Virus record (IMG/VR): IMGVR_UViG_3300009537_000062
Coordinates: 1-39,293 of that record
DNA: 39,293 nt
Strand: one strand, 5' to 3'
Source: a virus
Program-made: the position numbers and the translations under genes
Notes under the pieces: generated by a model
What the model was told of the DNA's origin: nothing
What the model saw: only the letters and a program-made list of their open reading frames with translations
Database searches by the model: none
Part shown: positions 6,470 to 37,364 of the stretch, piece after piece
Layout: every line of letters begins with the position of its first letter
Position numbering within the stretch: position 1 is the first letter of the stretch

Positions 6470-7248
6470 TTCACCACCTCGGCGTTCGCATCCTGCGCAA
6501 CCTCGATAGGCTCATCGTAGCGGATATCATCAATCAGGCTTGAAAGTCCGCCAGCGGGACGCGCCGGGACGGGAGTCACGTTGATAGCGTCATCATCCTT
6601 TTCCACGGCCTCGCGGATCTCGGGTGAGAGCGGAACCCATTTGAGAGCGCGCCTTGCAACGGTCTTTTTCGCCATCTCATTCCAGTCGGTGACCCAGGGA
6701 CCGGAGCCACCGGCACGCGAGCGCTTGCGGATTGCGTCAACTTCATCGCGGGTCATCACCTCGGATTTCTCGCCACCGTCCTTGAAGCGAACGACGCAAT
6801 AGGCGGCATAGACTGCGCCGCGAGGCTCACGATAGTTGACCTTGTGCGTGATGCGTCCGGTATCCGATTCGAAAACGTCCTTGTCGCAGACCACGTCGGA
6901 ATGGATGTTCGAGACGGTGCCGGACCTGAGCGCGAGTTCCACCATGCCCTTGTAATCGAGGATCAGCGTGCATTCGTATTCGCCGCTCTTGTTGTTCTTG
7001 AACGGGATCAAATGCGCCCGGCGCCCATCCGGTTCCAGTCCTGCGGTGGACAGGTCGAGAATGCAGCGGCAGACGCTCGCCGGCGTGCATTTGGCGAGGA
7101 GTGGCGTGCGCGTGATCGCGGTTAATGCGACGCGGATCTGGCGCTCGGGCGTGAGATGACTAGGCAGCGCCTTGGCAATCTGTTCGGAAAAAGACGGCGA
7201 GGAAAGCCAGTCTTTGACGGTGTTCGTTTTCGCGATTTCTGTGCTCAT
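6466..7248 (-). CDS. recT: RecT-family single-strand annealing protein
   Basis: 260 aa, usual RecT length. Recognisable: the helical N-terminus, LPSHLTPERQIRVALTAITR, the CILDLSTAGLEPDGRRAHLI block, LILDYKGMVELALRSG, and GPWVTDWNEMAKKTVARRAL near residues 182-201, which are hallmarks of RecT/Bet-type annealases. It anneals complementary single strands made by the adjacent exonuclease and may help phage genome recombination or repair. The C-terminal tail (from about 215) is acidic and variable. It is the first gene of the coupled recT-exo-(2 small)-ssb run; the 42-bp spacer upstream holds no obvious promoter. Confidence 0.95.
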   Translation of the reverse strand: MSTEIAKTNTVKDWLSSPSFSEQIAKALPSHLTPERQIRVALTAITRTPLLAKCTPASVCRCILDLSTAGLEPDGRRAHLIPFKNNKSGEYECTLILDYKGMVELALRSGTVSNIHSDVVCDKDVFESDTGRITHKVNYREPRGAVYAAYCVVRFKDGGEKSEVMTRDEVDAIRKRSRAGGSGPWVTDWNEMAKKTVARRALKWVPLSPEIREAVEKDDDAINVTPVPARPAGGLSSLIDDIRYDEPIEVAQDANAEVVK

Positions 7249-7290
7249 GGTGGTGTATTTGTTGTGTTGTTGTTTCTGACGGAGATTGAA

Positions 7291-7455
7291 TCAAATCCGC
7301 TTTGCGATCCTGCGCCCGAGTTCACGCAGGTTTTCCCGTGTCGCATTGCCGAGCGCCCCTTCCGCCAGCCTGCGCGATGACTCGGACAGTCTCATGCCGA
7401 GCTTGGAAATAGCGATCAGGATCGCGGCGACAAGAATCCAGAATTTGAATTTCAT
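7291..7455 (-). CDS. Small single-pass membrane protein, 54 aa
   Basis: ATG at 7455 to TGA at 7291-7293. The product begins MKFKFWILVAAILIAISKLG: a positively charged start and a hydrophobic helix, followed by a basic, Arg-rich tail. Support comes from the 4-bp ATGA overlap with the end of the 7452-7700 gene. It could be a small inner-membrane accessory or superinfection-type protein; no family recognised. Confidence 0.55.
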   Translation of the reverse strand: MKFKFWILVAAILIAISKLGMRLSESSRRLAEGALGNATRENLRELGRRIAKRI

Positions 7456-7700
7456 GTGGCGGATTCTCCGATTTGCTCGATTGCGAGTTCGCGGATATAT
7501 TCGGCTTCGGTTTCGTCTACCTCAATCAGCTGTCCGCTGTCAGCGTCGGTGACGGAATCAACTTCGGCGATGAATGCGCCGTTATAGCGCCCTGACTGCT
7601 CTTCCGGGCATCCAATTTCGGATGCGTAGGCGAATATCGTAACGTCAGCGATTACGCGGATCTCTCCGGCCTCGCGGTCCAGTGTGGTGTGTATTTTCAT
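7452..7700 (-). CDS. Hypothetical acidic protein, 82 aa
   Basis: Begins MKIHTTLDREAGEIRVIADV, beta-rich, with an acidic second half (VDETEAEYIRELAIEQ). No family recognised. Its start lies inside the 3' end of the 7645-7896 frame (56-bp overlap in another frame) and its end overlaps the 54-aa gene by 4 bp. Confidence 0.6.
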   Translation of the reverse strand: MKIHTTLDREAGEIRVIADVTIFAYASEIGCPEEQSGRYNGAFIAEVDSVTDADSGQLIEVDETEAEYIRELAIEQIGESAT

Positions 7701-7896
7701 GGGGAAGAGGTGAACGGGAGCGGCGGCGCGGTGCTTTACGAACAGCGCGCACCCCTACGCTCTGCTCGTTTTTTTCCGTCTGCCGCCGCTCCCGAAAATT
7801 GAAATAGCGCTCCTCAAGGAATCCGACGATTGCACCGAGCGCAAGACCGGCACCCACGATTGCAAACAGACAGATAATGAGGGTTGCCAGGTTCAT
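7645..7896 (-). CDS. Possible membrane protein, 83 aa
   Basis: Begins MNLATLIICLFAIVGAGLAL, a clear transmembrane helix, followed by GFLEERYFNFRERRQTEK and a very Arg-rich C-terminus. The last 18 codons overlap the next gene in another frame, so the C-terminus may be longer than is functional. Placed right after the tail tip gene; could be a membrane-associated accessory. Moderate support only. Confidence 0.45.
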   Translation of the reverse strand: MNLATLIICLFAIVGAGLALGAIVGFLEERYFNFRERRQTEKNEQSVGVRAVRKAPRRRSRSPLPHENTHHTGPRGRRDPRNR

Positions 7897-7939
7897 GCGC
7901 CCAGAATTGAGCGCATGCCTTCAGTAAATCAATAATGAA

Positions 7940-10666
7940 TTACCGACCGCCTGATTTGTCGTATGCGTTTTCCACCGACACCGGAGCGGACGTGAACCAG
8001 CCGGAACGCTCGGCCCATGCGAGCATGGTGGAATCCAGCGCCAGAACAAAGGGCGCGGTGTAGGTGGTTTCCGTCCCGCCGTCGATGGTGTATTTTATCG
8101 TCGCGGAAGGCGTGGCGCATCCGAGCGTGATCGTGATTGCGCCCTGGCCGAGCGTCCCCGTGTAGCTCCATGTCGGTGTTGCCACGGCAGACATCGCCAC
8201 CGAGTTAAGCGTATAGGGGATGATCACCTCGTTCGAGCGCGCCAGCGTCGCGTCAGAGAATGCGCGGATGCGGAGGAGCGTCGTCTTCGTTATCGTGATG
8301 CCTCCGCCGGGAAATGCCGGCGATGCCGAATTAACCTCGGAATTGTCGGTCGTATAGCGCGCCGTGGTGCCCGCCACAGTTGTGGCCGTGATCGCCAGCG
8401 ATGTATTGAACAGCTGCGGACCGGGAGAGACAGAAGGCGCAGAGATCGGGACGAAAGTGTCGTAGCGGAACATGCCGACGGAATCACAATAGGTATTTGC
8501 CGCGTTGGCGAAAACAGAGATCTTCGCAACGACCGTTGACAGCGGAGCCGATGCGATGACTTCGACGGTCTCCCAGCCTCCTCCAACAGCGGGCGAGCTT
8601 TCAATTAGCGAAGTGTCATCGCCAAGCTCGTCTTGAAAGAATACTGAGACCGTTGCATCTGCGCCATTCACCCTCGCGCGCGCATGGAATCGATCGCCGG
8701 GACGGCAGGCCACCGCATATCCGTTGATTAAATATCCTCCGTTGGTTGAGCGTCCGCCCCATCCATATTCGCCTGCATCGTCTTCGATCAGCCAAGACGC
8801 AGATTGGGCCCACCCAATATCACCCTCCTCAAAGAGCGGATTGTAGCACAGATTCGACGGATCTCCCAGCAGCGTGGTTCCCTGCCCGTCAGTTGTGCGC
8901 GCCGCGATGACGTGATTATTCACCTGCGCCCAGCCGGACAGGACGTGCATCACGGACTTGGCACGCACGCGCACATCGTAGGACGTTAGATCCGTCACCC
9001 CATCGATGAACGTGAACGTATTCGCCCCCGGCATCGGCGCGAGCGCAGTCCATTCAGAGTCCGCAGATTTCTTGAATTGAACCTCGATTACCCCCCCGTC
9101 CGTGACGAAAACATCAGCAGGAGGAACCCACGTCACGAGGATGCGCGATGTGATCGTGCCGTCCGTTTTTTCAAGCGCGACGGATGCCGACGAACTGAGT
9201 GTGAGCATGCTGGGCGCCGGGATGATGGACGCATCGAATATCTCTGGGTTGATCGCCGGCAGGACGGTGGTTTCATCATCGGCGGCGATCCAGTTCCAGA
9301 TCGCGGCGTCGGTCTCGCGCAGCACGAGATCAACTCCGAGCACGGGATCGTCTTCGCCGCCCTCTGCCTTGAATGAAAAATCCGTTACCTCGAAGAGCTT
9401 GTTGGTGAATCCGAATCGCGGAAGCGTAACCGAGATCACATCCCCGGCGCGGCAGTTGAGCGCGGTAAGGTTCGCCGGGAAGTTGAGCGTGAAGTCGCGG
9501 CGGCTGCGTTCCAGCGCGATCTTCGCCAGCCGCTGCGCCGTCGCCGCCGAGGTCGTGAGCGGCAGACCGAGATCGTGCCAGACGCGCACGCCGCCATCCT
9601 GCGCCGTGTAGCTCGCGTTCGTCATCGGCGGATAATCTGCGACCTGCCAAAGGTTGACCGCTGCCGTATATTCCCCCTTCACGCCGTTGAATGACTCGCG
9701 GATCGGATCGCCCGTGAGAAGGCCGATTGGCCCGCGGGCATTGTCTTCGGTTAGGTTTAAGACCGGCGTGCGGTGCGCACCGGCAATCGCCCGAAACTTC
9801 CCGCTGATGTAGGGAAGGAATCCCGCCATCGCGTCGATCATGTCCTGAATCGAAGAACCGGGAGAAACGGAGGAGTCAATCATTCCGTTGATCGTGTAGC
9901 GCGCCTCGTCGAATCCGGCCTTGAGGTCCACCCGCTCGTCGCAGATGTTCGCAGCGGCAATGAACGACGGCTCGTCGATTTCGGAAGCCAGCGCGCCAAG
10001 TCCGAGGTTTGCGTCGAGCAGATAGTCCCGAAGACAGAGCGCCGCGTTGTCAGAGTAAGCCGTCGTTGCTGTCCGCGGGTCGTAAACCTTGCGGCCTTTG
10101 ATCACTACGGAGATATTCGGAATGCCCGAAGTGAACAGCTCAGAATTGTATTTCAACCGGACGTAGGAGTAGCAGATGCCCTGCAGCCGGTGATCCGTCG
10201 TCCAGTCGGTTGTCTCCGCGACCAAGTCCGTATCCGCCGTCTGAGTCGGAGAGCCAAGGTGGAATTTTGCGCGCACGTGCCCAGCATATTTTCCGACGGC
10301 ATCGCCGGCGCCATCGAGAGGGACGACCTCATCGTTCAACTGAAGGCTGTCAATCGACTCGCATTCGTGCGCGGCATGGGCGACGACGAGGTGCAGAAAC
10401 TCGCGCTTATTGCCCGACGTTCCGATGTAGCAGAAGACGCCTCCAACGCGGATTTGCCCGTAAACGATGCGCCTGGAGTAGTTCGGCTCACGGACGCTGA
10501 AGGTGCGCCCGGAATCGAGGCCATTGCGCCTCGCGGCCTTCTTCGCCTGATGCCGGGAGTAGGCTATGGACGCGACGAAGGCGACGACCTTGATCACGAA
10601 CCAAACCTTGCCGGCGGTGCTCATTGCCGCCCACGCTTTGGCTATGAATGCAAAAACTTGAGGCAT
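7940..10666 (-). CDS. Tail tip/host specificity protein (J-like) with C-terminal CHB_HEX_C-like repeats
   Basis: 908 aa, last gene of the tail module, in the position of lambda J, which forms the tail tip and binds the receptor. After a hydrophobic N-terminus (residues 20-37) the protein has the tail-hub features of this class, for example GGVFCYIGTSGNKREFLHLV and the CLRDYLLDANLGLG segment. Residues about 490-600 look like a fibronectin type III domain (WVPPADVFVTDGGVIEVQFK). The final 170 residues contain two repeats with the pattern ...ARYTTDNSEVNSASPAF... and ...IKYTIDGGTETTYTAPF..., which resemble the chitobiase/beta-hexosaminidase C-terminal domain, a likely glycan-facing module. Hub assignment rests on order and motifs; receptor unknown. 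Confidence 0.82.
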   Translation of the reverse strand: MPQVFAFIAKAWAAMSTAGKVWFVIKVVAFVASIAYSRHQAKKAARRNGLDSGRTFSVREPNYSRRIVYGQIRVGGVFCYIGTSGNKREFLHLVVAHAAHECESIDSLQLNDEVVPLDGAGDAVGKYAGHVRAKFHLGSPTQTADTDLVAETTDWTTDHRLQGICYSYVRLKYNSELFTSGIPNISVVIKGRKVYDPRTATTAYSDNAALCLRDYLLDANLGLGALASEIDEPSFIAAANICDERVDLKAGFDEARYTINGMIDSSVSPGSSIQDMIDAMAGFLPYISGKFRAIAGAHRTPVLNLTEDNARGPIGLLTGDPIRESFNGVKGEYTAAVNLWQVADYPPMTNASYTAQDGGVRVWHDLGLPLTTSAATAQRLAKIALERSRRDFTLNFPANLTALNCRAGDVISVTLPRFGFTNKLFEVTDFSFKAEGGEDDPVLGVDLVLRETDAAIWNWIAADDETTVLPAINPEIFDASIIPAPSMLTLSSSASVALEKTDGTITSRILVTWVPPADVFVTDGGVIEVQFKKSADSEWTALAPMPGANTFTFIDGVTDLTSYDVRVRAKSVMHVLSGWAQVNNHVIAARTTDGQGTTLLGDPSNLCYNPLFEEGDIGWAQSASWLIEDDAGEYGWGGRSTNGGYLINGYAVACRPGDRFHARARVNGADATVSVFFQDELGDDTSLIESSPAVGGGWETVEVIASAPLSTVVAKISVFANAANTYCDSVGMFRYDTFVPISAPSVSPGPQLFNTSLAITATTVAGTTARYTTDNSEVNSASPAFPGGGITITKTTLLRIRAFSDATLARSNEVIIPYTLNSVAMSAVATPTWSYTGTLGQGAITITLGCATPSATIKYTIDGGTETTYTAPFVLALDSTMLAWAERSGWFTSAPVSVENAYDKSGGR

Positions 10667-30519: not shown

Positions 30520-30804
30520 CTAGGACAGGAGCTTCAGCGCCGTTCGAAGCTGGCAGGTGCGCCAGATTTTGCCGTTGACCGTGATTTCAACTTGGTTTGT
30601 CCGCCCGTTGACTGCGCGCCGGATGCACCATTCGACATCGCCGGATGTTCGGTAGGTTTTGCCGGTGCGCAGGACGGTGCCCCGTGCGTCGAACAACGCG
30701 CGTTTTCGGAGCGTATCAGCGTCAGCTTCCCGTGGTTGCCAGGCGGCGGCTGATGCGATCCCGCGTTTTCTGCCCAGATCGCGCCTGCTATTACGGTTTC
30801 TCAT
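30520..30804 (-). CDS. Hypothetical basic protein, 94 aa
   Basis: MRNRNSRRDLGRKRGIASAA, rich in Arg; residues 45-85 beta-rich (TGKTYRTSGDVEWCIRRAVN). The start overlaps the end of the first cassette gene by 14 bp in another frame. It may be the ancestral phage gene at the array's left edge. No family recognised. Confidence 0.5.
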   Translation of the reverse strand: MRNRNSRRDLGRKRGIASAAAWQPREADADTLRKRALFDARGTVLRTGKTYRTSGDVEWCIRRAVNGRTNQVEITVNGKIWRTCQLRTALKLLS

Positions 30805-31180
30805 GTTTGACCGGACGGCATATTGAGGTGTTCGGCGAAGAAGTGTCGCCGGTGATTCGGATGCGGAGACGCCAAGCGCACGCGTCGAGGTTCATCAGCG
30901 CGTAGCCCTGCATCACCTCCATACGTTTCGCGAGGTCACTGCCGCGACCGGGCTTCACGTTGTTGGCGGACATCTCCGCCCATGTGTGCCGGTAGGCGTC
31001 AAACTCCGCGATCGCCTCCTTGAGTTCAGCGATCTCACGCATCAGCTCGCGGTCGATTTTGGCGAAGCGAGCGCGGTGCATGTTGTCGAAGGTTCCATCA
31101 TAACAGCCGAACAAATCGCCACAGACCAACGCCGGGGATTTGGGGTTTTCGGGTATCGTTTCAGCAGGATTTTCTGGCAT
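30791..31180 (-). CDS. Cassette gene 1: helical protein with attC-encoded N-terminus, 129 aa
   Basis: Begins MPENPAETIPENPKSPALVC-GDLFG: the start codon lies in the loop of attC A and the first 25 residues are encoded by its arm and core. The rest (YDGTFDNMHRARFAKIDREL, MREIAELKEAIAEFDAYRHT) is a long helical bundle. Unlike the other cassette genes, its frame runs through the lone core at 30830 and stops 39 bp beyond, in flanking DNA, so its C-terminus may be changed by the insertion. Function unknown. Confidence 0.62.
   Translation of the reverse strand: MPENPAETIPENPKSPALVCGDLFGCYDGTFDNMHRARFAKIDRELMREIAELKEAIAEFDAYRHTWAEMSANNVKPGRGSDLAKRMEVMQGYALMNLDACAWRLRIRITGDTSSPNTSICRPVKHEKP
30830..30836 (+). 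other. Lone core site GTTCGGC, attI-like position
   Basis: The core GTTCGGC followed by GAAGAAGTG is nearly the same as the right-hand core of attC B (GTTCGGCGAAGAGGT), but no partner arm is found to its left, so it does not fold. On the plus strand it is the first boundary of the array, where an integron would have attI. It may equally be a decayed half attC. Confidence 0.4.
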
Positions 31181-31238
31181 GGTAGTAGAAGGGTTTTGCT
31201 TGCCGGCTCCCCGGCGTGGCTGATCTCAGGAGTTCGGC
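31106..31238 (+). repeat. attC-like site A, 133 bp
   Basis: Left core GCCGAAC (31106-31112) and right core GTTCGGC (31232-31238) are exact reverse complements. Inner arms AGACCAACGCCGGGG and CCCCGGCGTGGCT pair with two extra A in the left arm. Start codon of cassette gene 1 in the loop (31180); stop TGA of the next gene at 31226-31228 in the right arm. Confidence 0.8.
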
Positions 31239-31591
31239 GGAAAGATTGAGAGGTCCACGAAACGCGGGTCGCCAAACGCCGTAAATATCAGCGTCCACAC
31301 CTTGCGACCGTGCGGCTTCACTCCGGGGTTGCCGTGCTGCTCGGCTAGATTTTCGCACGCGCCGAGGATTCGTCGGACGAGGTGCTCCGGCTCGGAAGCC
31401 TTGTCGGTCCACGGCACCGCCACGAGATCAAGGTCACGCGTGAAGCTACCGTGCATGGCTACCGCATAGCCTTCCTGCCACGCCAGCAGGCGCGTGATTG
31501 TGAAGATTCGCGCATAGTCAGGGTCGATGATCCCATACGCCGAACCCCCGGCGACACCCAACGCGGACTTGGCCGATTTCTGTTTGCTCAT
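31226..31591 (-). CDS. Cassette gene 2: nucleotidyltransferase-like protein, 121 aa
   Basis: Starts in the loop of attC B (MSKQKSAKSALGVAGGSAYG). GYAVAMHGSFTRDLDLVAVP has the GS...D-x-D pattern of the nucleotidyltransferase fold (MNT/Pol-beta type) with two carboxylates. WTDKASEPEHLVRRILGACE is a helix after it; the C-terminal AFGDPRFVDLSIFPP gives a third candidate Asp. Similar small NTase-like proteins occur in phages and integrons, and their substrates are unknown. TGA stop lies in attC A. Confidence 0.68.
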   Translation of the reverse strand: MSKQKSAKSALGVAGGSAYGIIDPDYARIFTITRLLAWQEGYAVAMHGSFTRDLDLVAVPWTDKASEPEHLVRRILGACENLAEQHGNPGVKPHGRKVWTLIFTAFGDPRFVDLSIFPPNS

Positions 31592-31627
31592 GGTGATTGG
31601 TCGCGTGGGTGCCCCGGAACGTTCGGC
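31539..31627 (+). repeat. attC-like site B, 89 bp
   Basis: Left core GCCGAAC (31539-31545), right core GTTCGGC (31621-31627). Arms CACCCAACGCG and CGCGTGGGTG pair with one extra A. Start codon of gene 2 at 31591 in the loop; the next gene's TGA (31635-31637) lies 8 bp beyond the right core. Confidence 0.8.
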
Positions 31628-31634
31628 GAAGAGG

Positions 31635-31901
31635 TCACTTAGTTGTCGCGGGAATTAGCTCCACGTCGTCACACACGCGGCCCGGTTCCGCGCTCACGCC
31701 GGCGCAGTATGCATACCATACCGAGCCATCCTGTTTTTTTATGATGTAGTGCCCGCTTTTGTCGGGCACCATAGCGACCTGCGCACCCGCATATTTCTTT
31801 TGCACGGCACTTCTGCCGCGAGCATCTGAGCATCCGCACAGAATCGCCGAACAAATCGCCAGTGCCAAGATGCACCAGCGGACGTTTTTAGTGTTTTTCA
31901 T
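31635..31901 (-). CDS. Cassette gene 3: small lipoprotein, signal peptide partly attC-encoded, 88 aa
   Basis: MKNTKNVRWCILALAICSAI-LCGC is a lipoprotein signal peptide with lipobox ILCGC; the mature part (SDARGRSAVQKKYAGAQVAM, VPDKSGHYIIKKQDGSVWYA) is a small beta-rich domain. The start lies in the loop of attC C, and the h-region is translated from the attC arm and core in a different frame from that used by cassette genes 1, 5, 6, 8 and 9. Acts at the cell envelope if exported; function unknown. Cysteine-containing end (AYCAGVSAEPGRVCDDVELI). Confidence 0.75.
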   Translation of the reverse strand: MKNTKNVRWCILALAICSAILCGCSDARGRSAVQKKYAGAQVAMVPDKSGHYIIKKQDGSVWYAYCAGVSAEPGRVCDDVELIPATTK

Positions 31902-31946
31902 AGAGTGATATGGTTTGGTGCATCTGGCACATCTCAGGAGTTATGC
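31846..31946 (+). repeat. attC-like site C, 101 bp
   Basis: Left core GCCGAAC (31846-31852), right core GTTATGC (31940-31946). Arms GTGCCAAGATGCACC and GGTGCATCTGGCAC pair along 14 bp with one extra A. Start codon of gene 3 (31901) in the loop; stop of gene 4 at 31951 is 4 bp beyond the right core. Confidence 0.82.
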
Positions 31947-31950
31947 GGCT

Positions 31951-32133
31951 TCACCAGTCCCACCTTTCTGCTGCCGCCAGCATCTTATCTTCGTTCCGCA
32001 TGATTGCTTCGTCGGAACCGTATCGGTGGACGAACGCGATGCGTGCCCTCCATGCCCAATATACCGATTCGGAGCAAAGCCGCATAACCAGCCAGTGCAG
32101 CGAACGGCGCGATTGCGTCTCTCGTGTTTTCAT
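31951..32133 (-). CDS. Cassette gene 4: small basic protein, 60 aa
   Basis: ATG at 32133 (in the loop of attC D) to TGA 31951. MKTRETQSRRSLHWLVMRLC, then an Arg/Trp/Tyr-rich helical body (VYWAWRARIAFVHRYGSDEA) and a C-terminal helix (EDKMLAAAERWDW). The ATG overlaps the stop of gene 5 (ATGA), so the two are coupled. No family recognised. Confidence 0.58.
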   Translation of the reverse strand: MKTRETQSRRSLHWLVMRLCSESVYWAWRARIAFVHRYGSDEAIMRNEDKMLAAAERWDW

Positions 32134-32172
32134 ATGGTTTTCGTCGCGCCGTCGCTGACCGGCGCGATATGC
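32082..32172 (+). repeat. attC-like site D, 91 bp
   Basis: Left core GCATAAC (32082-32088); right core GATATGC (32166-32172), one change from its complement. Arms GTGCAGCGAACGGCGCG and CGCGCCGTCGCTGAC pair with extra G and extra A in the left arm: two bulges, like the paired extrahelical bases of classical attC sites. Confidence 0.78.
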
Positions 32173-32441
32173 GGAGGCGTTTCGCTGCGCCAGTTGCAGT
32201 CGAGCGAGAAGCACGCGAAGAAGCTCCCGCGTTTCATGTTCTCCATCCAGAATCCTTCGTGTCCGCATTTTGGGCACGTCACCATGAAGTGGTCTTTACA
32301 GACCTTCCATCGTTGCTTGGTGCAGCTTGGCTTTAGCTGGCGTTCGTTCTCACAGAAGAGACAGACGCCTAACCACGGGTCAGAGCCAACGACCATAGCG
32401 GCCACTGGTTTTTCTAGGGTCTGTATTTTATTCGTTTCCAT
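32130..32441 (-). CDS. Cassette gene 5: cysteine-rich zinc-ribbon-like protein, 103 aa
   Basis: Starts at ATG 32441 in the loop of attC E; residues 12-25 (PVAAMVVGSDPWLG) are encoded by its arm and core. Then CLFCENERQLKPSC, CKDHFMVTCPKCGHEGFW and FFACFSLDCNW give paired Cys motifs (27/30, 56/59, 77/82) typical of zinc ribbons that often bind nucleic acid. It reads through the arm of attC D and stops in its loop. A longer frame exists upstream, but this start lies in the usual place. Confidence 0.65.
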   Translation of the reverse strand: METNKIQTLEKPVAAMVVGSDPWLGVCLFCENERQLKPSCTKQRWKVCKDHFMVTCPKCGHEGFWMENMKRGSFFACFSLDCNWRSETPPHIAPVSDGATKTI

Positions 32442-32485
32442 TTTGAAATTCGCGCTATGGTCGCGGCTCATCCCGACCGTTCGGC
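32367..32485 (+). repeat. attC-like site E, 119 bp
   Basis: Left core GCCTAAC (32367-32373), full RYYYAAC match; right core GTTCGGC (32479-32485). Arms GAGCCAACGACCATAGCG and CGCTATGGTCGCGGCTC pair over 16 bp with AA opposite one base. Gene 5 starts in the loop (32441); gene 6 ends at TAG 32455 inside the loop-side arm. Confidence 0.82.
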
Positions 32486-32802
32486 AAGAAGAGGTGAGCG
32501 TCATCGTCCCACTTGGCGATTGCCTCCCCTGCAATTTCTAGGATGGCTTGGTCTTCCCCGCACACGTCGCCGGGTAGCTCTGCTGTCGATTCCCACGGTG
32601 CCCAAACCCCGGACCATTCCGGCGTGGCTGGCCGCGTTATCACCACAGTCGGAAGGATGTCACCGTTTCCGTGGTGGTAGGTGCCGCGTGCGAGCTGGAA
32701 GCCTCGCTCGTTGAGCAGTCGGGCAAAAGCACCGAACAAATCGCCCGAGCCAAGATGCACGGGCCGTCCTTTCTCGGTGGGTTTATCTGCGGTGTTGCTC
32801 AT
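32455..32802 (-). CDS. Cassette gene 6: hypothetical protein with attC-encoded N-terminus, 115 aa
   Basis: MSNTADKPTEKGRPVHLGSG-DLFG: the start at 32802 lies in the loop of attC F and has a good ribosome binding site (GGAGG, 8 nt before the ATG), so this leader is really translated. The body (LLNERGFQLARGTYHHGNGD; VVITRPATPEWSGVWAPWES) looks like a small enzyme-free globular protein with a C-terminal acidic helix. No family recognised. Ends inside attC E. Confidence 0.7.
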   Translation of the reverse strand: MSNTADKPTEKGRPVHLGSGDLFGAFARLLNERGFQLARGTYHHGNGDILPTVVITRPATPEWSGVWAPWESTAELPGDVCGEDQAILEIAGEAIAKWDDDAHLFLPNGRDEPRP

Positions 32803-32844
32803 GATGTTTTCCTCCGTGCATCTGGCTCATCTTTGGTGTTAGCG
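32731..32844 (+). repeat. attC-like site F, 114 bp
   Basis: Left core ACCGAAC (32731-32737), right core GTTAGCG (32838-32844). Arms GAGCCAAGATGCACGG and CCGTGCATCTGGCTC pair over 15 bp with one extra A. Gene 6 start (32802) and its GGAGG sequence lie in the loop. TAA of gene 7 (32839-32841) lies in the right core. Confidence 0.82.
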
Positions 32845-33162
32845 AGACACAGACACATCCGCGTCCGGGTTGGCCTCGCACGCCTCAAGATACCGCTCCA
32901 GCCACGGCAGGAAGTTCTTGTAGAGCCCCCAGCCGTTCGGGCTGTTGTGCTTCTCGAATCGCGCCGGGTCGGCCTTCATCTGAGCGATCCCGTTGCGCAG
33001 CGGTTCGATGAGTTGAGCGGCTTTCGTGATGCCGATTTCCTCGGGTCGCCAGCACGCTTCGTAGATTCCGGCCTCGCGAGCCATAGCCCCGAGGTTGTGT
33101 GTGATGTTCGCATCATAGACCGTCGTGGGACGGACTGCGGTGAGTGTTACGTCTAAGCTCAT
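32839..33162 (-). CDS. Cassette gene 7: conserved phage hypothetical protein, 107 aa
   Basis: MSLDVTLTAVRPTTVYDANI-THNLG..., with EAGIYEACWRPEEIGITKAA and NSPNGWGLYKNFLPWLERYL, and ending EANPDADVSVSR. I recognise this as a conserved family in phages without known function; the pattern ANITHNLG/WRPEE/NGWGLY/CEANPDA is characteristic. Unlike the other cassettes, its start (33162) is outside the site, 24 bp past the core of attC G, so it keeps a normal N-terminus. Stop TAA in attC F's right core. Confidence 0.8.
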   Translation of the reverse strand: MSLDVTLTAVRPTTVYDANITHNLGAMAREAGIYEACWRPEEIGITKAAQLIEPLRNGIAQMKADPARFEKHNSPNGWGLYKNFLPWLERYLEACEANPDADVSVSR

Positions 33163-33185
33163 ATTGTTTTCGTGAGGTTAAAAAT

Positions 33186-33273
33186 CGCTAACAAGATGCC
33201 AGAGCCAACGGCGACAAACGCCCGTCCGGCTGGCGAAGCTCAGATGCGCCGTGGCTCATCATCGGCGTTAGGA
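33186..33273 (+). repeat. attC-like site G, 88 bp
   Basis: Left core CGCTAAC (33186-33192), right core GTTAGGA (33267-33273). Arms GAGCCAACGGCG and CGCCGTGGCTC pair with one extra A. The closest match in the array to a textbook attC. Gene 8's TAA is in the right core; the gene downstream (7) starts outside the site. Confidence 0.85.
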
Positions 33274-33552
33274 AAAATATGAAATGGCTCGCTTGGCTGC
33301 ACTCGCTGGAGTGTCGAAAGGCTCGTCGGCCATATCGAGGCTCCCGTTATCCATCATTGAACACGGAAACCACTTACCGTCTATTAGCGCAGCGCCGGAG
33401 GAGTGAACATCTGACCAGTGCCACCACACGCGCTCATCCTTGCTCCATACGTATCCCTTGGGCTCCATAAAGACGGAGCCTAACAAATCGTTACAGACAA
33501 GCCCCTTCGCTGTTACGTCGGCTGATGCGGTTGGTTTATTTTCAGTGGTCAT
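33268..33552 (-). CDS. Cassette gene 8: hypothetical protein with attC-encoded N-terminus, 94 aa
   Basis: Starts at ATG 33552 in the loop of attC H: MTTENKPTASADVTAKGLVC-NDLLG, then YVWSKDERVWWHWSDVHSSG and CSMMDNGSLDMADEPFDTPA with a C-terminal helix. Aromatic/Trp-rich, probably a small beta-rich fold. TAA stop in the right core of attC G. No family recognised; typical of orphan cassette proteins. Confidence 0.65.
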   Translation of the reverse strand: MTTENKPTASADVTAKGLVCNDLLGSVFMEPKGYVWSKDERVWWHWSDVHSSGAALIDGKWFPCSMMDNGSLDMADEPFDTPASAAKRAISYFS

Positions 33553-33604
33553 GCTAGGTATGGTTCAGGTTTTATTCGGGGCTGTCTGATCTTTGGTGTT
33601 AGCG
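33478..33604 (+). repeat. attC-like site H, 127 bp
   Basis: Left core GCCTAAC (33478-33484), full RYYYAAC match; right core GTTAGCG (33598-33604). Arms CAGACAAGCCCC and GGGGCTGTCTG pair with one extra A. Start of gene 8 in the loop; TAA of gene 9 in the right core. Confidence 0.8.
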
Positions 33605-33961
33605 GCAGAAGCGTTTCGTGCGTTCATCGTCTTCATCGGGGAAGAGTCCTTCCGCTATCAGGCAGCGGCAGATTTGCTGGTGGTCGAATATGCTGCCGCC
33701 CTGATGGAGCAGCTCGCCGCGTTCGGACTTCTCCCAGTCATACGCCCACACGATGGTTTCGTGCCCGCGAGTGCTGCCGCAGTAGGTGTCGAACGTGCGT
33801 TCGATGGTTGAGACGAAGAAACATGCGTCCTTGTGCCACACGTAGGATTTCCAGACGGGCACGTTGGGGCGTTCGTCCAGACGCGCTAACAAGGGTCCAG
33901 AGCCAACGGCGGGACTGTCCGGCGTGCCCGCGTCAGCGGTGGGTGTAGGTGTGTCTTGCAT
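33599..33961 (-). CDS. Cassette gene 9: hypothetical protein with attC-encoded N-terminus, 120 aa
   Basis: MQDTPTPTADAGTPDSPAVG-SGPLLAR: a Pro/Thr-rich leader from the loop and arm of attC I, then VPVWKSYVWHKDACFFVSTI and TIVWAYDWEKSERGELLHQG, a small beta-rich body, and a C-terminal acidic helix. TAA stop in the right core of attC H. No family recognised. The conserved YVWHKDACFF-type segment recalls gene 8's YVWSKDERVWW, so genes 8 and 9 may be distantly related. Confidence 0.65.
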   Translation of the reverse strand: MQDTPTPTADAGTPDSPAVGSGPLLARLDERPNVPVWKSYVWHKDACFFVSTIERTFDTYCGSTRGHETIVWAYDWEKSERGELLHQGGSIFDHQQICRCLIAEGLFPDEDDERTKRFCR

Positions 33962-34009
33962 TTGGAGTCAGTTGAGGTTCTCGCCGTGGCTCATCCCCGA
34001 GCGTTAGCC
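33884..34009 (+). repeat. attC-like site I, 126 bp
   Basis: Left core CGCTAAC (33884-33890), right core GTTAGCC (34003-34009). Arms GAGCCAACGGC and GCCGTGGCTC pair with one extra A, the same arms as in site G. Gene 9 starts in the loop; gene 10 ends (TGA 33991) in the right arm. Confidence 0.83.
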
Positions 34010-34242
34010 GTGGCGATGTGCTCGCGGATCGCCAGCCATTCCAGCCATTCGGTGATTTTCACAGACTGTGAAATGTGTTGTCCGTTTTCGAGAATATACA
34101 CAAATCGCATGTTTTCTGAATCCCATGATACATGTGTAAGAATCCACGCATTTGGGCAGAACCTTTGGCAGAAGCCTTTTGTTTCATCGTGCGCTAAGTC
34201 TTCCCACGACGAAAGAACGGCTAACAAGGCGGTTGTATTCAT
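33991..34242 (-). CDS. Cassette gene 10: hypothetical protein, 83 aa
   Basis: From ATG 34242 (MNTTALLAVLSSWEDLAHDE), which lies in site J; a GTG at 34272 would add ten residues. Body: KGFCQRFCPNAWILTHVSWD, then beta hairpin VYILENGQHISQSVKITEWL and a helix ending IATANARG. It ends in attC I. The first residues TALLAV are translated from the core of site J. Family unknown; may be immunity- or regulator-like by size, but nothing shows it. Confidence 0.58.
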   Translation of the reverse strand: MNTTALLAVLSSWEDLAHDETKGFCQRFCPNAWILTHVSWDSENMRFVYILENGQHISQSVKITEWLEWLAIREHIATANARG

Positions 34243-34286
34243 AGGTTTATTTTCCGGGACTCTGCGAGTCACCTTCGGCGTTAGGA
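34219..34286 (+). repeat. Degenerate attC-like site J, 68 bp
   Basis: Left core GGCTAAC with AAGGCGG (34219-34225 plus), right core GTTAGGA (34280-34286) preceded by CTTCGGC as in site G. The inner arms do not pair well: GGCGGTTGTATTC against GAGTCACCTTCGGC; instead a local hairpin GACTC/GAGTC lies on the right. TAA of the XRE gene is in the right core. A decayed or hybrid site at the far end of the array. Confidence 0.5.
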
Positions 34287-34550
34287 CTCCAATCCACGCG
34301 CTTTAGTTTTCGGACGTTTCAAGAGATCGGCCATCACGTTCAGCGGGGCGGCGTTGGGAATCCTCCCCTGCTCCCAGCCCTCCACTGTGCGGCGGGAGAC
34401 TCCGCACGCTTCCGCGAGAGCGTCCGTGCTCAGAGTGAGCGCCTCGCGCACGGCTTTGATCCCTGGACCGTAGTCCATTACATCCCCGCCATCGGCGAGG
34501 ATTACAGGTATGCCGTAGCTGCTGCTGGGATGGTTGCAGGTGATTTTCAC
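34281..34550 (-). CDS. XRE-family HTH regulator, 89 aa
   Basis: GTG at 34550 overlaps the upstream stop (GTGA). N-terminal beta part (MKITCNHPSSSYGIPVILAD), then the HTH: IKAVREALTLSTDALAEACG, VSRRTVEGWEQGRIPNAAPL, a classic Cro/CI-type with recognition helix SRRTVEGWEQ. Its stop codon TAA lies in the core of site J, so it ends like a cassette gene and may be a cassette whose own attC was lost, or a host for the array's far end. It may control the array or phage genes; operator not identified. Confidence 0.85.
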   Translation of the reverse strand: MKITCNHPSSSYGIPVILADGGDVMDYGPGIKAVREALTLSTDALAEACGVSRRTVEGWEQGRIPNAAPLNVMADLLKRPKTKARGLES

Positions 34551-35102: not shown

Positions 35103-35447
35103 TCATAGCTTCGCCCTTACTTTTGCCCAGTATTTGACCGTTGCCGGCTTTTTCCATCCGTTGGGACCGCCGTTCCAGATCCGGGCGCGATCTTCGTCCG
35201 TGACCGGGCGCCCGATGCGCTTCTCGGTCGCGTAGTGCCCGAGGTAGATCCGGCACATGGTCGCTGCCAGCGCCGGGTCAAAGGCGTCGGCATGCCGGTA
35301 ATTCGTGCCGGCGATCCGGTTGACGTCAACCACGACGCCGGCGTGGATCTGGAGGACTCCAAACGCCTTGCCACCGTCGCCGATGGCTTGAGCGTTGCCG
35401 GACGATTCGGCCGCGATCAGGGCGGCGAGCAGGAGAGATGTGATCAT
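35103..35447 (-). CDS. Lysozyme/transglycosylase-like endolysin, 114 aa
   Basis: MITSLLLAALIAAESSGNAQ-AIGDGGKAFGVLQIHAG: an SLT-type core with the catalytic Glu14 in AAESSGNAQAIG and the GVLQI motif, then ALAATMCRIYLGHYATEKRI and RIWNGGPNGWKKP, typical of a goose-type/SLT fold. The hydrophobic N-terminus overlaps the fold, so it is not a normal signal peptide; the holin is at 24.4 kb. Cuts the glycan strand of peptidoglycan at lysis. Small for a lysozyme but similar phage transglycosylases exist. Confidence 0.8.
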   Translation of the reverse strand: MITSLLLAALIAAESSGNAQAIGDGGKAFGVLQIHAGVVVDVNRIAGTNYRHADAFDPALAATMCRIYLGHYATEKRIGRPVTDEDRARIWNGGPNGWKKPATVKYWAKVRAKL

Positions 35448-35555: not shown

Positions 35556-37364
35556 TCAGCCCTCTTTTTCGAGCGTGAAGCGCACGATCCCGGCGATGAT
35601 CGCGACGGCGACCATCATTGCGCTCGTGTCAAATCCGTGATTCGCGTTCTGCTTCACTTCAACCCATTCCCAGACGCCGGGACGGACCTCGCGCTTCTCC
35701 TCGGCTTTCAGGTGCTCAGGGTAGAGCGGGTTCACGTTCTTCGGCAGCTTCCATTTGAAGCCGCGACCGGAGGCAGCGTTGGCGACGATGTCCTTGCAGT
35801 GATATGAGCTGAACTCGTAGAACGGCGCGGCCTGCTGTCCGATGTTTGACCAGCGCGGGTCAGAGTGCGGATAGTTTTCGAGCAGGCCGTTCGTATCGTT
35901 GCGAAGAGTCCACGTCTTCTTCTTCTGCCCCATCATGCCCTTCCAGCCGTAGCGGATGCAGTCCTGATCCACTTGGTTCGGCTCGTAGCGCCGGTCCTGA
36001 GCGACGGCGATATCCGGAACGCCGTAACGCTGCTGGATGGACCGCACGCTCTCGATGGTATCGACTGCCCCGAAATAAAGCTGTGTGTAAGCCGGTTCCG
36101 CCGTCCATGCACCGACCTCGACCCACCATCCGCGCTGCTGCCGGTCCAGGATCATGAAGCGCGCGACCTCGTCCGGGATCTTCTCGCCGTTCCAGTAGGT
36201 TTCGACGGAATAGTCGGAGTCAGTGCCGGTGATCGTGATCGTCTGCTTTTCCTCGACCCAGCCGCGCGCCTGCCGCTTCTGCTTGAAGACGCGGCGCGCG
36301 TCGGTGGATCCGGTCTTGAGGAATTCGTTTTCCGCCTCGCAAAACTGTTCCGCCAGCAGCCGCATGGGTCGGGTGACGATCGCTTCGAAATGGAACGATC
36401 GCGAGTCTGCCGGCGCGCCGGGGTTCTGCGGAATGTAGCGCCCTGTCTTTTTCCAGTGTTCGCGCGTCCGGTCGGTATCAGGCACCTCGTGCGCGCAGTG
36501 CGGACAACGGAAGCGGGCGGATCTGCCGGCGGCGCCCACGTCCCATGACCGATCATCCCGGCGAGCGCTTGCATCCCATACGACACCGGCGCGAGATTTT
36601 CCGTCCGCAGACTCCTGATCAAACGCCAGAATGTATTCCTTACGACACGCCGGGCATTCCGCGCCCCATTCAGCCATGTGACCGGCTTTCCATGCCACGT
36701 CGGAAACGTCGTCCTCCCAGCCGCCTTGTGAGATGTTGAGCACTTTGCTCGTGCCCATTTCCTCGAACTTGGTCACGCGCCCAATGGCTTCCTTGTAAAT
36801 ATTCTGCCACTTCGGATGCCAAATTTCGTCATTTATTTTAAACCTGATGGACTGACTCTGCTGGTCGGATAGATTCGCCGAATTCAGGACCATGAAGAAT
36901 CCGCCGAAATAGACTTCTGTGATCGTCCGATTCGGTCCCGGACGAGGCAGCAATGCAGCCACCGGCGCGCAGCGTTCCATGATCGGGTTCAGCCGCGTCT
37001 TGGCGTGCCGCTCAACCATGTCGTCGGTGTGCATGGTCCAGGAGATCGGTCCCGGAGAGTTCACAATCAGCCACGGCACCCAGACATCGGCGATGAGCGT
37101 GCCGCCGGACTGAACCGCCTTTGATACCGTGACCGTGCGGATGGACTCGTCCTGCAGCGCATCGAAGATCGGGATCAGCCACGGGGAGAGGTGTGCGTCG
37201 AAGTGCCCCGGAATTGCGTAGGACTCAGGCAGGATGATGTGCTTGCGCGCCCATGCGTAGATCGCCGAGCGGTCGGGAGGCGTGCGCTTGAACGCTGCCC
37301 ATTGCGCGGCGATTGCCGGTAGGTCTGGTTTCTTTTTCCGATCCTTCACTTGCCGGGTGTCCAT
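35556..37364 (-). CDS. Terminase large subunit, GpA-like
   Basis: 602 aa. ATPase: Walker A-like SKAVQSGGT at 81-89 and Walker B FKINDE at 175-180. Two CxxC pairs (CPAC 237-240, CPHC 287-290) form the zinc element of GpA-type enzymes. Nuclease: MILDRQ at 404-409 and VAQDRRY at 454-460 supply the metal-binding Asp residues. It packages DNA into the prohead and cuts concatemers, as lambda gpA does; cos or pac type cannot be told from this window. Overlaps the small subunit gene by 19 bp. Confidence 0.93.
   Translation of the reverse strand: MDTRQVKDRKKKPDLPAIAAQWAAFKRTPPDRSAIYAWARKHIILPESYAIPGHFDAHLSPWLIPIFDALQDESIRTVTVSKAVQSGGTLIADVWVPWLIVNSPGPISWTMHTDDMVERHAKTRLNPIMERCAPVAALLPRPGPNRTITEVYFGGFFMVLNSANLSDQQSQSIRFKINDEIWHPKWQNIYKEAIGRVTKFEEMGTSKVLNISQGGWEDDVSDVAWKAGHMAEWGAECPACRKEYILAFDQESADGKSRAGVVWDASARRDDRSWDVGAAGRSARFRCPHCAHEVPDTDRTREHWKKTGRYIPQNPGAPADSRSFHFEAIVTRPMRLLAEQFCEAENEFLKTGSTDARRVFKQKRQARGWVEEKQTITITGTDSDYSVETYWNGEKIPDEVARFMILDRQQRGWWVEVGAWTAEPAYTQLYFGAVDTIESVRSIQQRYGVPDIAVAQDRRYEPNQVDQDCIRYGWKGMMGQKKKTWTLRNDTNGLLENYPHSDPRWSNIGQQAAPFYEFSSYHCKDIVANAASGRGFKWKLPKNVNPLYPEHLKAEEKREVRPGVWEWVEVKQNANHGFDTSAMMVAVAIIAGIVRFTLEKEG

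Follow-up and report, generated by a model that had tools for sequence, protein, structure and literature searches.

A cassette array of attC sites carrying reversed genes in an uncultured tailed phage, and its apparent link to phage-encoded integron integrases

Integrons are bacterial gene-capture platforms, and phages are their occasional carriers. The subject here is an interval of the viral record IMGVR_UViG_3300009537_000062, an uncultured tailed-phage contig with most genes on the - strand, of which all 39,293 bases were analysed (the window); in this interval ten small cassette genes, separated by palindromes, lie between a portal gene and an endolysin-like gene. Qi et al. 2023 (PMC9892861) already describe integrons and clusters of attC sites lacking an integrase (CALINs) in phages; of the six phage attCs that they tested, five were recombined by IntI1, and they show host-derived integrons in Vibrio and Shewanella phages. 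The CALIN of Tetrasphaera phage TJE1 is like the interval an attC cluster without an integrase in a tailed phage, carrying small accessory genes. However, TJE1 genes run with attC, whereas the window genes run against it and mostly start inside it; and unlike that of TJE1, the attC subtype of the window is also found in a phage that encodes an integrase.

The class 1 integron (IntI1, with aadA, aacA4 and VIM cassettes) resembles the interval in its core and spacer (AACAAATCG ... TCAGG.GTT) and in its left-arm extrahelical base, but its gene polarity is canonical (11:0), and IntI1 is 39% identical to the integrase of viral contig G002, which is discussed below. Vibrio phage p16 and Shewanella phage M16-3 are alike in holding an integron integrase within the phage record; their intI-adjacent genes, however, diverge from intI, as in bacteria, and their integrases fall outside the viral clade described below. 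In the chromosomal integrons of Treponema, transcription of intI heads toward attI, and the genes point away from intI (PMC3607928); intI and cassette genes share one direction there, as in the viral integrase contigs, but in the latter the arrays lie upstream of intI, intI runs away from the array and the genes run toward intI. Virus Rctr41k (KX853513; L143) is a phage record with an integron-type integrase, annotated xerD, and six attC-like sites (6641-10101), and differs in that the sites lie downstream of intI and the genes follow attC orientation; it is not among the examples named in the accessible portion of Qi et al. 2023 (PMC9892861). A literature search with many journals outside its scope returned no description of reversed cassettes in phages, and one without most subscription journals and preprints returned nothing relevant on phage-encoded integron integrases in uncultivated viruses.

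The interval is confirmed as a genuine attC cassette array, with at least two attCs and no integrase nearby, and the probability that it is an integron cassette array built into the phage operon by an integrase acting in trans, from another phage or from a host, is put at roughly 80%. The original prediction for this DNA implied that an integrase-less array in a phage was new, which was too strong, since such arrays are already described (Qi et al. 2023, PMC9892861). The array itself belongs to this known kind, while two features look new, its reversed genes and its tie to a clade of viral integrases; the polarity and the phage-encoded integrases, both missing from the original prediction, are the more unusual part. 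Ten attC-type sites, B to K (31106-34286), and a lone core at 30830 delimit ten cassettes:

30830-34286, attC top strand +, genes on -: cassette array, between the portal gene and the endolysin-like gene
30830-30836, +: R' core GTTCGGC standing alone at the end of the array (site A of the original prediction)
31106-31238, +: attC B, score 44.8, the best in the window
31539-31627, +: attC C, score 38.3
31846-31946, +: attC D, with a similar site in viral contig G004
32082-32172, +: attC E, score 39.6 using an alternative right core at 32179; right core degenerate (GATATGC)
32367-32485, +: attC F, high in both position weight matrix scorings
32731-32844, +: attC G, high in both scorings
33186-33273, +: attC H, weaker, score 29.1
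33478-33604, +: attC I, high in both scorings
33884-34009, +: attC J, among the top eight by the bacterial attC score
34219-34286, +: attC-like site K, stem atypical; its R' overlaps the stop codon of an XRE-family gene

The main attC score combined a stem score with core and spacer position weight matrices that were trained on 20 bacterial attCs and on nothing from the window; position-weight scoring was used because a MAFFT alignment of the bacterial attCs misaligned the right arms. Sites B, F, D, E, C, J, I and G are the top eight of the whole 39 kb, all on the + strand, with scores of 34-45, where known bacterial attCs score 37-58 and 0.03 matches per 39-kb strand of shuffled sequence are expected by chance at a score of at least 34. 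A separate matrix from class 1 and TJE1 attCs puts F, I, B, G and D first in the window. The original prediction had placed attC-like sites at these positions (its A-J are relettered A-K here), and they are borne out. The clearest sites have a left arm of AAC, nine bases, GAGCC and A and a right arm of GGCTC, ATC, TCAGGA and GTT, in the register of class 1 attCs; on the + strand it is the left arm that carries the extrahelical base or bases, and class 1 sites processed with identical code show the same. The paired cores and inner stems that had been claimed stand for most sites, but A is a lone core without a convincing inner stem, H is weaker, the stem of K is atypical and the right core of E is degenerate.

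Pairing of the cores is cassette-wise and joins the R' of a site to the R'' of the site that follows; 45 pairs are counted, where permutation gives a mean of 15 (p = 4e-5). For instance, GTTATGCGGCTT at 31940 pairs with AAGCCGCATAAC ending at 32088, and GTTAGCCGT at 34003 pairs with ACGGCTAAC ending at 34225. Core pairing is thus strongest across a cassette and not between the two cores of one site, which is expected from a circular cassette inserted at G^TT.

By the extrahelical base and the core spacers, + is the attC top strand; the ten genes all lie on -. A canonical cassette gene runs in the same direction as the attC top strand; this fails for all ten window genes, and the automated count of genes against attCs in the window gives 4:0 reversed. 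The start codon lies within an attC for nine of the ten genes (the open reading frame of cassette E being putative), that of gene H just outside, and a clear Shine-Dalgarno sequence is present only at gene G. The genes are as follows:

30791-31180, -: cassette gene B (129 aa), start within attC B, extending beyond R' A into flanking DNA
31226-31591, -: cassette gene C (121 aa), related to genes in ten other viral contigs
31635-31901, -: cassette gene D (88 aa), whose N-terminus comes from attC D
31951-32133, -: putative short open reading frame of cassette E (~60 aa), start in the attC E loop; read from the sequence
32130-32441, -: cassette gene F (103 aa), with weak Pfam matches and cysteines like those of a zinc ribbon
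32455-32802, -: cassette gene G (115 aa), starting inside attC G and preceded by GGAGG
32839-33162, -: cassette gene H (107 aa), a phage protein also in TJE1 and others; start outside its attC
33268-33552, -: cassette gene I (94 aa)
33599-33961, -: cassette gene J (120 aa)
33991-34242, -: cassette gene K (83 aa)

With this polarity the attC doubles as a coding-sequence leader in nine of the ten genes, and it is therefore under two constraints, one on its folding as a DNA substrate and one on its coding. The shared attC sequence yields GDLFG in genes B and G but AICSA in D; as it is read in different frames, it is the DNA and not the peptide that is conserved. One orphan gene per unit had been proposed, which does not hold for C and H, since these belong to phage gene families with relatives in other phages; for the cassette G protein, a search of viral contigs found no relative. 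The relatives of gene C match mainly downstream of its attC-encoded N-terminus, and no convincing attCs flank them, which is consistent with a phage gene that acquired an attC leader. In gene D (window 31635-31901) and at L048 2833-3138, attC D encodes a signal-peptide-like N-terminus, and in both phages the body after R'' opens with a lipobox-like cysteine; the gene D product may be lipoprotein-like. In the G004 counterpart, ATA replaces ATG and the start is unsure.

A search pattern built from sites D, G and I and run over the viral collection found three further true sites of near-identical sequence, in contigs G002, G003 and G004. G002 and G003 carry terminase, portal and capsid genes, and G004 carries a primase/helicase together with terminase-like matches. 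G002 and G004 have one cassette in common, with 87% identity over 373 bp. Over 114 bp, attC D has ~90% identity to the G004 site, with similarity stopping at the cores; the two copies of attC D precede different bodies, which suggests exchange at R''. Outside these attC and cassette pieces, the window, G002 and G004 share no similarity at the same threshold. The window attCs are closest to the phage attC set at most sites, in a comparison biased by the larger size of that set. Inside the G002 array, DNA methyltransferase genes are found at L043 3125-4021 and 6633-7373; Qi et al. 2023 (PMC9892861) report such genes in phage cassettes too.

The G002 integrase scores above the NCBIfam cut-off for integron integrases (TIGR02249, 274.9 versus 265 bits), carries the R, K, HxxR and Y motifs and an integron-specific region (LARKYP), and aligns to the solved integron integrase 2A3V. 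Its gene sits directly after its reversed array, at the end of it, and immediately upstream of intI there is a single isolated core. A phage with the attC type of the window thus encodes an integron integrase, which supports the earlier proposal of a recombinase supplied in trans. A search with the G002 integrase found 42 viral contigs, G002 itself included (41 further). In these viral integrase contigs, the attC top strand is directed away from intI in 45 of the 54 oriented upstream sites, while genes at upstream sites oppose attC by 36:6; this corresponds to the usual platform geometry with only the genes flipped. Under the same code, 20 chromosomal loci of Planctomycetota give 1:13 reversed versus canonical (Fisher p = 1.7e-7 against the viral 36:6), and the class 1 and TJE1 controls give 0:12. 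Among the Planctomycetota loci (L123-L142), some attCs lie downstream of intI and point away from it and others lie upstream, both geometries being present.

In the integrase tree, the 18 viral sequences closest to G002 (at least 49% identity) and one remoter viral sequence lie beyond a 100/99 branch, on the other side of which are IntI1, the Vibrio, Shewanella and Planctomycetota integrases and 14 other viral integrases. The bacterial sampling was partial, covering three phyla and plasmids. The best bacterial identity of the G002-type integrase is 34-43% in Planctomycetota and 41% in plasmids, and the phage integrase had no match at E <= 1e-65 in samples of ~400 genomes from each of two other phyla. 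One integrase clade thus appears viral-only within the sampling available; as several major phyla lie outside that sampling, this is not proven. In G026 and G028 (L083, L085), the terminase and portal matches each hold one internal TGA, which could be a gene end inside the match, recoding, a frameshift or a sequencing error.

According to the proposed mechanism, an integron integrase from another phage or a host would build and shuffle the array, and the cassettes, each spanning core to core, would travel as single-stranded attC hairpins and insert through cleavage of G^TT in an R' core. Phage transcription on the - strand would read the genes lying against attC polarity, with translation usually starting within the attC. 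We infer that the sites recombine, that the integrase acting in trans is of the phage type and that transcription of the phage operon expresses the genes. That other phages with similar cassettes encode an integron integrase suggests that accessory genes are shuffled in some phages by an integron of the phage itself. On balance we favour, with some reserve, a distinct integron lineage of tailed phages, having its own integrase clade, reversed cassettes read by the phage operon, starts nested in attCs and a pool of accessory genes shared across unrelated phages, including integrase-less ones such as the window phage. If some phages do run their own integrons, these would give them a site-specific means dedicated to the shuffling of small accessory genes, with a bearing on the origin of phage mosaicism and the source of orphan cassette genes.

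Several points weigh against these interpretations. The attC and strand calls rest on a home-made finder; with sites H, K and E imperfect, part of the array may be immobile; and neither recombination nor an excised circle nor a strain pair was observed. An attI was not identified either, no attI model having been applied. TerL or portal was found in 11 of the 26 integrase contigs checked with two PHROGs, so that some of these contigs may not be phage. The polarity counts include the near-duplicate contigs L083/L085 and L066/L069, and the six exceptions among 42 may be calling errors or real.

The finder's home-made nature and the near symmetry of some sites also give grounds for taking the reversed polarity as an artefact of unreliable extrahelical-base strand calls, the array then being an ordinary phage CALIN. 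This is very unlikely, as class 1, TJE1 and Planctomycetota attCs come out canonical in the same code (12:0 and 13:1), the window sites score higher on + than on -, and the AACAA spacer and the extrahelical base concur. That the palindromes are terminators, RNA processing hairpins or translational control elements rather than recombination sites would fit their position at the boundaries of co-transcribed genes and the start codons in their loops; it is scarcely credible, however, as AAC/GTT cores, extrahelical bases on one arm, cross-cassette pairing and likeness to bacterial attCs would all be unexpected, the Rfam scan of the window gave no match, and the reading of one attC in different frames in D and G points to conservation at the DNA level.

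The array might instead have been captured once from the chromosomal integron of a bacterial host, with no further link to phage integrases. The window itself is without an integrase, and host-derived integrons are present in Vibrio and Shewanella phages according to Qi et al. 2023 (PMC9892861). A block inversion, however, flips attC and gene together, so that polarity would stay canonical, whereas that of the window is reversed; polarity is canonical (13:1) in those bacterial integrons whose integrases are the nearest of the ones sampled, the Shewanella and Vibrio phage integrons have intI-adjacent genes divergent from intI, and C and H are phage gene families. A single host capture is therefore regarded as unlikely, and assembly by an integrase in trans is preferred.

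The array is flanked by phage genes:

28193-30010, -: portal
35103-35447, -: endolysin-like gene, named from its sequence
35556-37364, -: large terminase (TerL)

The XRE-family gene at 34281-34550 has its stop codon within the R' core of site K, and its end looks as if it were the insertion point of the first cassette. Searches of the window with TIGR02249 and PF00589 found no integron integrase or other tyrosine recombinase, in a contig that may be incomplete; this agrees with the proposed integrase-less cassette array inside tailed-phage genes. The attC pattern gave four matches in genome contigs, none with a convincing attC stem, and no host was found in this way.

At the DNA level, the 29-38 kb part of the window had no near match among the annotated phages searched, and no relative close enough to show gain or loss at strain level was found. 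Related phages were found through portal and terminase, the close ones being 57-71% identical. A comparison of relatives for the gain or loss of whole units had been suggested with the original prediction: the array is absent between TerL and portal in L002, L003, L004, L006 and L008, and units with ends at or near the cores are common to otherwise unrelated phages, which bears the prediction out in part. In L004, a single cassette of the same anatomy lies upstream of TerL, and its flanking cores pair over 9 bp (GTTAGCCGC/GCGGCTAAC).

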